NCBI GenBank assembly: GCA_913031035.1
Contig: CAJWGN010000001.1
Span: 66,923-110,627, forward strand
Length of the DNA stretch: 43,705 nucleotides
From: an uncultured Gammaproteobacteria bacterium
Lineage (GTDB): Bacteria; Pseudomonadota; Gammaproteobacteria; Pseudomonadales; Pseudohongiellaceae
Direction: 5' to 3'
Shown: positions 28,934 to 35,571 of the stretch, piece after piece
Numbering within the stretch: the first letter of the stretch is position 1
Layout of the letters: every line of letters starts with the position of its first letter
Position numbers and translations under genes: made by a program
The notes under the pieces: model-generated
The model's input: the letters and a program-made list of their open reading frames with translations, nothing else
Databases searched by the model: none
Told to the model about the DNA's origin: nothing

Positions 28934-31177
28934 TTAAGGCTGCCAAGCGTAGCTAAACTTGGCGAAAAGAGTACGATTAATCGGCTCTACGGAGTTTAGG
29001 CTATCATCTTGGAATGCGGCATCAGAATACCCAATGAAAAAACGGGTTGCAGCGGTAAAGCGAAAGCTATAAAGAAGCTGAGTGGTGAGGCTTTTGCTCC
29101 GACTTTGAACTTTATTGTTATATAAACCCTGATCGCGCTTGTTGTAGCTGTTCTGCAAGGTAAACCGCAGGAAGCTTTTGGCGTTAAATTGATAAGTTGT
29201 GCGCAGGTTGCTTAAATTGGCGGTGAAGAGCCGGCCTCCGGCGACATCAAATTTTTGCAGGGTGTGACTTAAACTGAATTCCACGTGCTGGCCAAGCTGG
29301 TAGTCTATGGAAGGCCTATAGCGCTTAGAATGACCGAGTCGGGTGTTGGCAAAATCGACCACGTCTTCATAGCGAATTTGAGTAGAAATTCGAAGGCTTG
29401 GGGTAGGTGCAAATCCTATCACGACCTGATTGAACTGCTCGTCGAAGTATTGGCCATTCCAATAGGTTTTACTTTTACCAAACAGACCATTAAAAAACGA
29501 TTGCAGTGGTCCATCAAGATTAATGAACATCTCGGTTTCTTCCTCAAGCTTTAAGCCCGACTGATCCTCGGTGACATCGTAGTCCAATGCCACTCGAATG
29601 CGAGTGAAGAAGCTGTCACCATCGGCACGCCAGGTATAACCTAGTGTGGATACAAAGAACTTATAGTCAGCACGGTTGATAAAACCTAGATCGGCCCGAA
29701 AGTCTTTGCCGACGTCGGTGTACCCAACCCTCCAGTCCCAACGTTCGTCATTGTGGCGGTACTCTAGACGTAGGCTGTCATCGCTTAAATTACTGCGCTG
29801 GTCAAAGTCTGTTTGAATTTGGTGAGGGTAATCTGACGTTGTGTGCGTGGCTTGCAGTGACAGAGTATCTTTCTCGGTGGGTCTTAACACCGAATCGATG
29901 CTCATCACTGTGTTGTCATAGCCGGCGCCACTGCGATTGGTGAAAACCGCCCCGATGGTAGAATTATCGAAGATATCCATTCGATACCTGCCGATCGCAA
30001 CATCACTTTCAAATTCACCAAGGGATGCAACACTGGAACTTAATGCTCGAGGTATAAGGAAACTCGTAGATTCATCATTTGCAGTTAAAAGCCCATAGGT
30101 GTGGCGGCCTGTTTTGCCGGTTAGCTTAATCCCATAGTCTGGGTTGGCAATGTTGCGGGTATAAACAAGGTCTTCAAAGGTGTCGAAATAGTCCGCACCA
30201 TCAAGAAAGAATGTGCGGCGCTCTGGAAAAAATAGACTGAAGGTATTGTTAATATCAAGCTGGGCTCGATCCGCTTCGACCTGAGAGAAGTCAGGGTTTA
30301 ACGTCGCATTAAGATAAATATCTTGGGTGATGCCCCAACGCACATCAACTCCGGCATCAGGGTCGACGGCTTGGCTGTTCCAATTCCCGGCGGCTGGATC
30401 ACGGGTCTGAATAGCGGTACTGGTGAGCGTAGGAATCACCTCCAGGTTTCGACTGGTCTTGAGGTTAGACATCCCTCGTAGCTTGCCAATCTGACAAAGA
30501 TAACAGGAGATATCTCTATCTTGTGGGTTGTTGGCTATGCGATTACTGCGGTCTCTAGGGTAGTTTCGAACCAAATCGATTCCCCATGTTTGCCGCTCTT
30601 GGTTGGGGGAGAACCGCAGCTGCTTAAACGGAATGGCCATTTCGACGATGTAGCCTTTATCATTTAATTTACCTGCGCTTTGCCAAATTGCGTTCCAAGA
30701 GTCGTCACGATTTCGATTGACGTCATCATAGATCCTGTCTGCTTGAACGCCAAAAGGGTTAACAAAAAACTCATAGGCTCGCCGCTCGTCATTAAATGTA
30801 TCAAGCACAACCCCGACACGATCATCTCGCCAAATACCATCGCGGTCCCGAAAAAAGGCCCTTACTTGGTCGATATCGTCATCTTCGGCGACGAAGGCTA
30901 CATATAGGACGTCCCCGTCTTCCATTAGGAATGCCTTGGTAGAAACCTCAGCGACAGTATTGTAACCAGGTTCAGTTTCAATGTTCACGTTAATGACAGT
31001 GGCATTGTCCCATTCACCGACACTTAGAATCCCATCAATCTTGGGGCTATGGTCTATTCGAGGGATGTCGTCGCCGATTGACTGGGCAAGGGCTGGAGTG
31101 TCTTGAAAGTAGCAAAATGAAACTGCGAAAAAAATGCCAGTCAACAGCTTCAAAGATCTTAATGGAAATGGCTTCAC
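28934..31177 (-). CDS. DUF5916 outer-membrane protein with CBM9-like domain
   Basis: This is a 747-residue secreted protein. The N-terminal signal peptide spans about residues 1-31 (LLTGIFFAVSFCYF, then PALAQ). Next comes a CBM9-like beta-sandwich (about 40-235) with the typical KIDGILSVGEWDNA, RDRDGIWRDDRVGVVLDTF and GYIVEMAIPFKQLRF. The C-terminal DUF5916 part contains TLNPDFSQVEADRAQLDINN and FFPERRTFFLDGADYF and then alternating amphipathic strands ending in KFSYAWQP, like an outer-membrane barrel with a terminal aromatic. The role is unknown; carbohydrate-related functions are often presumed. The start codon is GTG. It is monocistronic on present evidence. Confidence 0.88.
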   Translation of the reverse strand: MKPFPLRSLKLLTGIFFAVSFCYFQDTPALAQSIGDDIPRIDHSPKIDGILSVGEWDNATVINVNIETEPGYNTVAEVSTKAFLMEDGDVLYVAFVAEDDDIDQVRAFFRDRDGIWRDDRVGVVLDTFNDERRAYEFFVNPFGVQADRIYDDVNRNRDDSWNAIWQSAGKLNDKGYIVEMAIPFKQLRFSPNQERQTWGIDLVRNYPRDRSNRIANNPQDRDISCYLCQIGKLRGMSNLKTSRNLEVIPTLTSTAIQTRDPAAGNWNSQAVDPDAGVDVRWGITQDIYLNATLNPDFSQVEADRAQLDINNTFSLFFPERRTFFLDGADYFDTFEDLVYTRNIANPDYGIKLTGKTGRHTYGLLTANDESTSFLIPRALSSSVASLGEFESDVAIGRYRMDIFDNSTIGAVFTNRSGAGYDNTVMSIDSVLRPTEKDTLSLQATHTTSDYPHQIQTDFDQRSNLSDDSLRLEYRHNDERWDWRVGYTDVGKDFRADLGFINRADYKFFVSTLGYTWRADGDSFFTRIRVALDYDVTEDQSGLKLEEETEMFINLDGPLQSFFNGLFGKSKTYWNGQYFDEQFNQVVIGFAPTPSLRISTQIRYEDVVDFANTRLGHSKRYRPSIDYQLGQHVEFSLSHTLQKFDVAGGRLFTANLSNLRTTYQFNAKSFLRFTLQNSYNKRDQGLYNNKVQSRSKSLTTQLLYSFRFTAATRFFIGYSDAAFQDDSLNSVEPINRTLFAKFSYAWQP

Positions 31178-31610: not shown

Positions 31611-32198
31611 TCACATATTTGCTGCTGCTTCCAAAATTCCTGAGAAGTCAGGACGGTCTTGATAGCGCTCTTCAGCAAACCTATGTTGGATGACACCGTT
31701 AGAATCTACCAAAAAGAGCCCCGGGTATGGGATGCCATAGAATCTATGGTCTGGCTCGTAATCTAAATTACGAATACCCAAGGCGTTAACATGTTTTACG
31801 TTTTCATCATGAAGCAAAGGAAAGCCAATCTTTTGATCTTCCTGAACTTCCTTCAGCATCTCTACCGAATCGTAAGAAAGAGCGGCAATACCAAACCCTA
31901 AGGCTTCAAACTGTTTTGTTACATCAGTCAGCTGCACGAGCTGAAATTTACAGAATGGTCACCAATCATAGGAGCGGCTCAGCATAAAGAGCATCCCCTT
32001 TTCACCTTTTAGGTCGTCAAATGTGCGTAGTTTGCCATCTTGATCTAGGGCAGATATCTCAGGTAACGATGCTCCGACTGGAAAGTCAGGAGCCCACACA
32101 AATTCTTGTGCAGTCGCAAGCTGTATAACACCTGTCAGGATTAGCGCGACGAGCGCTTTAGTCAGCAAACTTATACGCGAGTGGATAAAATAACGCAT
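31611..32198 (-). CDS. Candidate selenoprotein: secreted thioredoxin-fold/peroxiredoxin-like protein (UxxC)
   Basis: One frame runs from the ATG at 32198 (good GAGGA Shine-Dalgarno) to a stop at 31611, interrupted only by TGA at 31959-31961. Read through, it gives about 195 residues: signal peptide 1-30 (ending QLATA-Q), then a thioredoxin-fold AhpC/TSA domain. The TGA is codon 80 in LSRSYDW-U-PFCKFQLVQL, precisely where homologues carry the first Cys of a CxxC site. After the TGA the family continues undamaged (FGIAALSYDSVEML, YGIPYPGLFLVDSNG). Selenocysteine is thus plausible, and a hairpin with a GU loop follows the TGA. The alternative is a recent TGC/TGT-to-TGA nonsense mutation. SelA/B/C/D genes are not in this window. 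Confidence 0.62.
31928..31944 (-). promoter_or_regulatory. SECIS-like hairpin downstream of the in-frame TGA
   Basis: On the minus strand UCAGCU pairs with AGCUGA around the loop CGUGC, a 17-nt hairpin beginning 14 nt after the UGA. The E. coli fdhF SECIS upper stem-loop is also 17 nt, starts 11 nt after UGA and carries GU in its loop; here GU falls at nt 25-26 counted from the U of UGA, against 23-24 in fdhF. The similarity is judged by eye, and short hairpins arise by chance. Confidence 0.45.
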
Positions 32199-32344: not shown

Positions 32345-33100
32345 CTAGTCTAATGCCGAAAGAAAGCGCTCGCCTCTTGGCAGATAGCTATTATTACTGT
32401 CTAAAGAAAACACAACGGAATTTGAGCGGCCGATGATTTCTTCTCGCGGGACAAAACTGTAAACCCTACTGTCAGCACTGTTGTCACGGTTGTCGCCGAG
32501 GACAAAATACTGACCTTCTGGCACGCTTGCAGGGCCATAGCTGCGATTCGATCTGCTGATATAGTTAGTGCTGAGCTGTGCTTGATGGGACCTATTTGGT
32601 AGCTCTTCCAATATGATCACAGAATTTGGCTCTTGGGATATTATCTCGTAATTTGCTGCTTCGCCGTTTATGACCAAAGCGTTGTTCTGCATGTAAATAG
32701 TGTCACCAGGGATACCGACTATTCTTTTTACCAGGCGCTTGCCGGCTTTCTTGGAATCAATAATCACAATGTCGCCCCTGCTGGGGTCGCTAGTGGTGGC
32801 CAGGGATATTTCTGTGAAGGGTATTTTCACATCATAGGCGAGCTTATTGACCCAAACCTTGTCGCCATCCAAAAGAGTTGGTTGCATAGACGCTCCAGAA
32901 ATCGAGCTTAGGTCTGCGATAGCGCTTTTAAAAAAAATAATCGTTGCGAGCAGAAGGAAAAATTGTCGATTCTCTCGCCAGAAGCCGTGCCAGAAGCCGC
33001 CCCAATGTTTCTTAAATCGATGGCTCAGGGAAGGTGTATTGACAGCTTCCGCGGTTAAATCGTCTGTGTCTGCCGGCTTACTTTTTTCTTCGTTTTCCAT
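32345..33100 (-). CDS. lepB: Signal peptidase I
   Basis: This 251-residue S26A peptidase has a charged N-terminus, one clear membrane segment (about residues 47-63), then box B SISGASMQPTLLDGD with the catalytic Ser71, box D RLVKRIVGIPGD with the general-base Lys125, and box E VLGDNRDNSADSR. It cleaves signal peptides on the periplasmic face of the inner membrane. It is shorter than E. coli LepB (324, two membrane segments). The partners usually next to lepB (lepA, rnc, era) are absent, so this may be a second copy. The ATG at 33100 has only a weak Shine-Dalgarno. Confidence 0.92.
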   Translation of the reverse strand: MENEEKSKPADTDDLTAEAVNTPSLSHRFKKHWGGFWHGFWRENRQFFLLLATIIFFKSAIADLSSISGASMQPTLLDGDKVWVNKLAYDVKIPFTEISLATTSDPSRGDIVIIDSKKAGKRLVKRIVGIPGDTIYMQNNALVINGEAANYEIISQEPNSVIILEELPNRSHQAQLSTNYISRSNRSYGPASVPEGQYFVLGDNRDNSADSRVYSFVPREEIIGRSNSVVFSLDSNNSYLPRGERFLSALD

Positions 33101-33369
33101 GATTCATGATCAACCAGAGGGCCAGAGGATGTCAAATAAGACTTACCTTTTAGGATAGACGTCATTTGTGGTGGGTGTAGCGACTGCCCGTCAGATGCTT
33201 GGCTAGGATGACGCGCTCGGATTACTTACGAATACCACTAACTCTTGCAAATGTGGGCCGCGTCAAAATTTTTGTTTATTCATACAGTGTTAGGTCGCTT
33301 GTCAGATGACTCTATAATCATTCCATAGCGCAAGCAAAAACTGTTCCGAATCGGAATTCGGTGAGCCTA

Positions 33370-35571
33370 TGCTACTCAGGCTAAAGCATGGGAGGCCATT
33401 AAGGGGGGCAACCATAGGCTTATTTCAGCACCAACTGGCAGTGATAAGGCTCTTGCCGCTGGTGCCGCTATAAATGTTCTAGTTCAACAAGGGCTAAACC
33501 GAAGGCTATCTGATGGGGTGAAAATCCTCAACGTCTCTCCTTTGAAAGCCTTTAGCTATGACATTCAGAAGAATCTGGAACTGCCTTTGAATGGCATAGC
33601 CGGACATCTGCACTTGGTCGGCGAGCCCCCTGTTAATATTCAAACAGCCGTCGACAGTGGCGACACCCCAGCCGGTGAGCGTCAGAAAATAGTGAAAAAA
33701 CCTCTCCATATTTTGGCCACGATACCAGAGTCACTTTATCTGCTCTTAACCGGCGCCAGCGGCGCGCGATGTTGGCCAGCGTAACCACAATTATCGTTAA
33801 TGAAATTCACGCACTGTTAGGTGACAAATGAGGGCCTCATCTTTCTTTGTCTATCGAAAAGCTGCAGCGGCTAATTCTGAAAAGCTCAGGGCTGCATTTT
33901 CATCGAATCGGGCTATTAGCGACCCAAAAAGAGCTGCTGGTTAACCATCTGAAAGAAAATAACAACAGTAAAGACGCCGATGTTGACTGCGTTATTGTAG
34001 GTTCGGGATTCAGAAGCAAAATAGAGATGGGCTTGGTAGTGCCAAGCTAGCAACTTAACGCCTTAATGAGTAATGAGGTGTGGGAAGAACTTAACGAAAG
34101 GCTGGTGACTTTAGTAAAGAGGAATGACACCGTGGGGGTTTTTGTAAACCCAAGACGATTATCAGAGCGGATTGCGTTAGCACTTTCTGAAAGGCTTAGT
34201 GACGATGGTGTCTGCTTCCATCATGGCAGTAAGAGTAAGAACCGCCGGCATATCGCAGAGCAAAAGCTGAGGGACAGCAATTTGAAGGTATTGGTGGCAA
34301 CCGCCTCAGTGGAGTAAAGTATTAATATCGGCTCTTTGGATCTGGTGGCTCAGTTTTCATCTCCGAAAAGTCTCGTAACATCTTTACAGAGGGTCGGCAC
34401 TAGTGGTCGCTCAATCCATGGTATGCGAAAAAGCATTTTGTTTGCTCTAACCCGAGACGATTTGGTAGAGGCTTCGGCGTTGCACATTCACTTAAGGTGG
34501 ACGAACTAGATCGTATAATAATGCCCGAGAAACCTTTGGAGATACTGATACAGAAAATTGTGGCTGAACTTTCTTCACCACCCATTTTGAGTGAGCAAGC
34601 ATTTGAGGGTTGCGACTTAGGTGACCTCCACGCTCTTTTTGCAACCCCCTATCCTTATAGAGAATTGACTCGAAAATGCTTCGATATTCTAATGACCATA
34701 CTGGCAGACGGCTACACCACCAGGGAAGGGAGACATGGCACGCATGTTCGTTTGAATAGGCTAAATAATAAAGTGCGCGCACGCCGTGGGTCGAACCTAA
34801 TTGCCTTAACCAAAGGTGGCGCAATTTCTGATGGGTACAATTATCAGGTGGTGCTCGATCTAGAAGACACTGTAGTCGGAACTCCGAATGAAGATTTTGC
34901 GTTGGACGCCTGACCTGTCGATGTCTTTACTTTAGGCATCCACAGCGGGCAATTATTGTGGGTTGATGCTCTCAAAGTTCGCATTCGAGATACTTAAGGT
35001 ATAACACGAACCTTCCTTTTTGGTTTGGTGGATGGCAGGGTAGAAGTAGAGAGCTTTCCGAGTCGGTGTCTCGATTAAAAGAGAAAATTCCAGAGCTACT
35101 AATCCACGGTTCAGCAAATGCAGCAGTGCAGTGGTTGGTCGATGCCGGTGGATTACCACGATCAGCCGCTACGCAGCTCACCGAATATTTACAAACTGGG
35201 ATCATTACTCTTGGCGTTATGCCTACTCGAGACAGCACGGTCATGAAGCGGTTCTTCGACGAAGTCGGCGACATTCACATAGGCACTCACTCTCCTTTTG
35301 GCAGCCGACTGAATCGAGGTTGGGAATTAGCGCTATGTAAAGGTTTTATAAGTTATTTAACTTCGAATTGCAGGCAGCCGTCAACGAAGACAGTAGTGTA
35401 CTTTCATTAGGGGCGGTGCATAGCTTTCTATTAGGTGAGGTTTACCGATACTTCCAGTCGGCAACAGTTAAAGAGATATTAATCTGGGGAAGGTTGTGCT
35501 TCTTCATGATTTTTCAAAAGATCAAAATGGAGCCTTCAACAAATGCTTTTGAAGCGAAAATTTCCGGTTGA
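33370..35571 (+). pseudogene. lhr: Decayed Lhr-type ATP-dependent helicase gene
   Basis: Pieces in several frames follow the Lhr order: AWEAIKGGNHRLISAPTGSDK (motif I, GSGKT decayed), LKAFSYDIQKNL, GDTPAGERQKIVKKP, TIPESLYLLLTG, IIVNEIHALLG (DExH with Asp changed to Asn), RIGLLATQ, VGVFVNPRRLSERIA, HHGSKS, LVATASVE then a TAA near 34316, QRVGTSG, PYPYRELTRKCFDILMTILADG, NEDFALDA, RFFDEVGDIHIGTHSPFGSR, ELQAAVNEDSSVLSL. At least five frameshifts or stops separate them. Only the N-terminal half of a roughly 1400-1500-residue protein is represented; the C-terminal half is missing. Lhr helicases act in DNA repair. Confidence 0.88.

Follow-up and report, generated by a model that had tools for sequence, protein, structure and literature searches.

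A probable exported Prx-like selenoprotein with a UxxC site and a frozen SECIS-like hairpin in Pseudohongiellaceae

Does an in-frame TGA in an AhpC/TSA-family gene of an uncultured gammaproteobacterium encode selenocysteine (Sec), or does it mark a broken gene or a regulated stop? The question is raised by a locus within a window of 43,705 nt (the whole stretch of DNA analysed, from contig CAJWGN010000001.1 of assembly GCA_913031035.1, family Pseudohongiellaceae), where the first-pass annotation had proposed a candidate selenoprotein with UxxC in place of CxxC. The gene and its parts, in window coordinates, are the following.

31611..32198, minus strand: predicted Prx-like (AhpC/TSA) selenoprotein gene, encoding 195 residues if the internal TGA is translated as Sec, its own stop being the TGA at 31611-31613; orthologues are of the same length class
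32109..32198, minus strand: probable signal peptide of the Sec type, covering roughly residues 1-30, judged by eye; a long N-terminal helix in the structural model
31959..31961, minus strand: in-frame TGA at codon 80 (U80, predicted Sec), in the context SRSYDW-U-PFCKFQL
31950..31952, minus strand: Cys83, the second Cys of UxxC, invariant in a 50-sequence alignment

Translated on the minus strand from the ATG at 32198, with TGA as U, the 195-residue frame contains a single internal stop, the TGA at codon 80, which is thus the sole interruption of an intact frame, as had been stated. The AhpC/TSA-like family was also said to continue across the TGA, and it does: the Pfam AhpC-TSA domain (PF00578) spans residues 41-172, on both sides of the codon, with an E-value of 8.6e-24 and a score of 84.3 bits for the 195-residue protein against a gathering score of 26. 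Under translation table 11 the frame is split into ORFs of 84 and 108 aa, and the protein matched 14 NCBIfam models but reached the cut-off of none; thus, automatic annotation probably misses this gene.

Among homologues, the column of codon 80 is occupied by Cys or TGA alone in all rows read, the in-frame UGA taking the place of the first Cys in the CxxC of the Cys homologues. A scan of GTDB genomes yielded 30 loci, of which 25 have TGA at the column and five have Cys; Pseudohongiella strains were among the named matches and are labelled Pseudohongiellaceae in the tree. Within the family, 128 of 137 genomes were matched at E<=0.001, distant paralogues included. The TGA form of the orthologue was found in 67 genomes (65 of the window's own genus, plus G018 and G051) and the Cys form, a near-full orthologue without a stop, in 37, all of other genera; these counts leave out the partial-match genomes G035, G098 and G102 and genomes with only distant paralogues. 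TGA was read at the column in 67/67 family genomes listed with one internal TGA, and Cys in 37/37 of the Cys-form genomes. Further stops in close relatives had been named as evidence that would speak against a selenoprotein; each of the 67 TGA-form orthologues carries exactly one internal stop, the TGA at the column. Across all located orthologue rows, in which some species are present twice from two collections, TGA accounts for 92/117 and Cys (TGC/TGT) for 25/117. The motif search did not pick up L039, L118 and L132, which are Cys forms; L111 (no start) and L136 (short) are absent from some counts. Because the contig and whole-genome sets overlap in species, distinct rows were used for the hairpin and dN/dS counts below.

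The genome of the window (3.96 Mb in 307 contigs, 92.5% complete) encodes all four components, selA, selB, selC and selD, for which a search had been suggested. Profile searches detected SelA at 523.6 bits, SelB at 399.7 bits and SelD at 278.5 bits, the cut-off of each being reached by 2 of 14 control genomes as well. The tRNA-Sec scored 62.3 bits, over the Rfam cut-off; as 5 of the 14 controls also reach this cut-off, it matters that ARAGORN reports a tRNA-SeC with anticodon tca in this genome. SelD is part of a 773-aa frame, which, going by the description in the available portion of PMC2398784, we read as a probable Ndh-SelD fusion. The window itself contains no tRNA gene. Across the family, SelB was found at E<=1e-80 in 90/137 genomes, and in 62/67 TGA-form as against 12/37 Cys-form genomes (Fisher p 1.6e-10, kinship ignored). 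The five TGA-form genomes without SelB at this threshold have reported completeness of 79-94%.

Selection on the coding sequence agrees with the earlier claim that nothing after the stop shows decay. Over 98 usable pairs from 65 distinct Sec rows (dS of 0.2-1.2 on both sides; hairpin codons left out), dN/dS had a median of 0.117 ahead of the TGA and 0.084 beyond it, where the maximum was 0.29; there is no second internal stop. A first run gave 0.108 before and 0.078 after over 307 pairs, having double-counted species of two collections and included L112; the later run relies on distinct rows. For the window gene against five relatives, dS was saturated or nearly so and only dN was usable, at 0.07-0.09 before the TGA and 0.20-0.23 after it; the part after the TGA thus evolves faster in the window protein. 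Compared with L021, this part shows 111 nucleotide differences, 67 of them at third and 12 at second codon positions.

Downstream of the UGA lies a hairpin, for which the core is given here.

31929..31943, minus strand: SECIS-like hairpin core CAGCU-CGUGC-AGCUG, its GU-containing loop starting 20 nt after UGA; 59 of 63 distinct Sec rows agree over all 15 nt

The full structure of 17 nt, UCAGCU-CGUGC-AGCUGA, begins 14 nt after UGA, has a GU loop whose end bases C and C are unpaired, and was found as first described. The five codons for Q L V Q L, at +6 to +10 counted from the TGA, read CAGCTCGTGCAGCTG in 59/63 distinct Sec rows and differ from it by one or two bases in the remaining four; the string occurs in 0/23 distinct Cys rows, no two of which are alike there. 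Among the 63 distinct Sec rows, pairwise codon identity over these codons is 0.97 versus 0.44 at 51 other conserved columns, while in Cys rows it is 0.49 (three columns) versus 0.45. At other sites in the same Sec-form genes, the codons used for Leu, Val and Gln are far more variable. In L102 both sides of one stem pair are changed, both synonymously and with pairing kept; L090 is changed at a loop base only; and in L109 and L110 the outermost stem pair is broken.

As set out in the accessible text of PMC13188914, the bSECIS model specifies a stem of 4-16 bp, a loop of 3-9 nt with G in the first two loop positions and 16-37 nt from UGA to loop, and its search applies an energy filter of MFE <= -7.5 kcal/mol. 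The suggested folding check turned out in part: the window hairpin has the bSECIS geometry (a 6 bp stem and a CGUGC loop that starts 20 nt after UGA), but at -7.0 kcal/mol over 51 nt and -6.7 over 30 nt it misses the energy filter, and we therefore call it SECIS-like. The 51-nt energy corresponds to a z of 0.14, with 99 of 200 shuffles folding as well, so folding energy was dropped as evidence for the hairpin. Without the energy rule, the geometry is found in 46/48 distinct Sec stretches and 2/23 Cys stretches; L018 contains the 15-nt string, yet its 30-nt minimum-energy fold fails the geometry. Covariation was scored on 18 hand-chosen sequences, including all four 15-nt variants and 6 of 12 fusion-type sequences (see below), a choice that makes the counts lean towards variation. 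Double changes were seen at 1/5 pairs (three cells), two unpaired cells fell at the outermost pair, and three pairs were invariant; 4/500 shuffles reached the covariation score and 307/500 the number of double-changed pairs, so that covariation lends the hairpin weak support. What sets the predicted hairpin beyond chance is its conservation, in the form of frozen synonymous sites, and not its energy. An Rfam scan of the window at gathering scores gave no match.

The gene is flanked by the following neighbours.

32345..33100, minus strand: signal peptidase I (lepB), conserved upstream neighbour (Pfam Peptidase_S26, 2.3e-42)
28934..31177, minus strand: DUF5916/CBM9-like protein, downstream neighbour, given as context only

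In the 30-locus GTDB set, LepB lies upstream in 25/25 TGA loci and 0/5 Cys loci, one of the latter (L043) having little upstream sequence. Pseudogenes had been noted in the neighbourhood and one is indeed apparent, an Lhr-type helicase in pieces at 33365-35410 on the plus strand, with DEAD, Helicase_C, WH_Lhr and weak DEAD_assoc matches in separate ORFs; it is likely a pseudogene.

We are highly confident in predicting one full-length exported selenoprotein in which UGA-80 is read as Sec and Sec80 and Cys83 form a redox pair, and the proposal of a UxxC selenoprotein is strongly supported by the Sec machinery, the conserved TGA, the coding constraint and the hairpin. SelB with Sec-tRNA-Sec would decode UGA-80, judging by the machinery and signal in the sequence, and the GU-loop hairpin 14 nt downstream would direct this decoding. 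In the periplasm, Sec80 of the AhpC/TSA-fold domain would act as the attacking nucleophile and Cys83 as the resolving thiol, with a Sec-S-Cys bridge formed in each cycle. The protein would work either as a thiol/disulfide oxidoreductase or as a thiol-driven peroxidase and would be recharged, presumably, by a DsbD/TlpA-type periplasmic reductant. The redox partner and substrate named here are guesses.

The first-pass annotation had allowed for a fresh nonsense mutation, and the broken helicase gene about 1.2 kb away, together with the fairly long branch of the window protein (0.66), could be taken to suggest a pseudogene of a Cys-containing AhpC/TSA protein, or a sequencing error. The same TGA is nevertheless present in 67 family genomes, the codons after it are under purifying selection with no second internal stop, the hairpin codons are frozen and the genome has complete Sec machinery; a pseudogene or error is accordingly rejected as extremely improbable. 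Hairpins can promote read-through, and both table-11 fragments are open, so the UGA might instead be a regulated or programmed stop that yields two polypeptides or is read through with Trp or Cys, without selenium. We consider this very improbable, given that the column holds Cys or TGA alone in all rows read, that SelB accompanies the TGA in 62/67 genomes, that the hairpin has bSECIS geometry and that, in the structural model, the downstream piece would be without the strands preceding residue 80.

If the protein is a selenoprotein, it could still be a true peroxiredoxin with peroxide as its main substrate, rather than a thioredoxin-like oxidoreductase, a reading to which we give appreciable weight while judging it the less probable. 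The Pfam AhpC-TSA match favours it, as do the fold comparisons: the AF2 model of the 195-residue protein (pLDDT 89.8) has Bcp4 (Z 22.6) and AhpE (Z 22.2) as its closest folds. The top fold matches also include ResA structures, however, and in profile alignments residue 80, which lies directly before helix 81-99 in the model, aligns with the first Cys of the ResA WCxxC. Cys83 aligns with the active-site Cys of PrxQ/Bcp, which we take to be the peroxidatic one; together, these two correspondences would put Sec at the Thr position of peroxiredoxins. Indeed, in this register the PxxxTxxC/U motif is absent from 91/91 Sec rows, with Ser at the Pro place and Sec at the Thr place. By these alignments, the predicted Sec is at the place of the first Cys of ResA and thioredoxin and not at that of the peroxidatic Cys of a peroxiredoxin. 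We read the protein as probably a thiol/disulfide oxidoreductase of the periplasm, or else a peroxidase that works through a selenenylsulfide, the substrate and reductant being put forward from sequence.

The earlier statement that Prx-like selenoproteins are known from marine bacteria agrees with the published descriptions. Prx-like selenoproteins with UxxC have been reported from the Sargasso Sea and GOS data sets (PMC1088965, PMC2398784), 225 'Prx-like 1' sequences among them (PMC2398784), and the available part of a 2026 review counts them among the selenoproteins predicted with high confidence (PMC13188914). Prx-like 1 (pfam00578; 'Prx-like thiol:disulfide oxidoreductase'; reference WP_010940744.1) shares with the window protein PF00578, UxxC in place of TxxU, marine bacterial hosts and Cys homologues, a likeness drawn from the published description as available (PMC1088965, PMC2398784, PMC9312934, PMC13188914). 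Here, by contrast, one gene group is defined along with its SECIS-like hairpin, host lineage and gene context. SelL, called a Prx-like selenoprotein in the accessible text of PMC2398784, is represented by the SelL-related model NF040769, the second-best NCBIfam match of the window protein at 41 bits, below the cut-off of 120. By sequence, the window protein belongs to a new orthologue group of the already known UxxC Prx-like kind. ResA is exported, and so probably is the window protein, judging by eye from its putative signal peptide; ResA/TlpA oxidoreductases also have W-C/U-xx-C at the same place, but the window protein scores only 34.7 bits against the NF002854 cut-off of 170, and its predicted fold is nearest Bcp/AhpE. 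A literature search over titles and abstract starts found no selenoprotein paper on this lineage among the matches listed; such papers may exist.

The same genome contains 23 AhpC-TSA matches, five of which, the window gene included, are interrupted just once, by a TGA at a redox-site position. An AhpC/TSA protein at L149:496-1035, plus strand (G000:C121), has its TGA in FTGGUTMQC and resembles Sec-peroxiredoxin (PxxxTxxU); the AhpC/TSA fold is common to both proteins, but the predicted Sec of the window protein lies three residues earlier, at the Thr place, with no Pro/Thr motif. Near-copies of 378 and 388 residues with RGFWUPPC, at L157:425-1558 (G000:C235) and L158:516-1679 (C175), both on the minus strand, are further UxxC candidates. 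A 382-residue protein with WASWUGC and an AhpC-TSA domain (L152:1087-2232, minus strand, G000:C37) is a candidate UGC-type Prx-like selenoprotein, and L162 (G000:C34) holds a SelW-like (PF10262) short frame with a CTSU motif. The four MsrA-family matches in this genome have no internal stop.

In congeners, UPYC proteins of about 400 aa are encoded by 12 genes in 10 loci (L137-L146, including L137, L142 and L146). These proteins continue into a DsbD_N-like region, which among three scanned scored 43.5 bits, over the Pfam cut-off of 25, and 23.6 and 24.9, just under it; a protein search of the window's own genome found no such fusion. The GU-loop hairpin type recurs in these genes with compensated stems, and the fusions suggest what the reductant of the Prx-like protein may be.

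In a phylogeny of 89 proteins, built after masking the Sec/Cys column, 66 of 67 TGA rows fall in one clade (97/98). The remaining row, L112 (G051), stands beside a Cys form (100/96) within a branch of Cys forms, and two Sec/Cys changes are the fewest that the tree allows. L112, from another genus, has its TGA at the same column (L112:669-671), where its relatives have Cys; of five g8 genomes, G051 is the one found among the 90 SelB-positive genomes. The hairpin loop of L112 has no early G and misses the bSECIS model, so this TGA may also be a mutation, and a second Sec origin here is possible but weaker. The window gene probably arose from a Cys form, such as sister genera retain, by a change of Cys80 to Sec. 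All 41 matched plasmid records were below 60% identity.

Tentatively, and with some doubt, the lineage may run a selenium-based periplasmic redox module that combines the stand-alone UPFC protein with UPYC-DsbD alpha-like fusions of about 400 aa, whose genes have a GU hairpin of the same type, its stems compensated; Cys may have been changed to Sec at this site at least twice in the family. The frozen 15-nt SECIS-like hairpin is open to direct test, and the Prx-like group is a well-bounded further set of orthologues in which Sec and Cys forms separate cleanly by genus.
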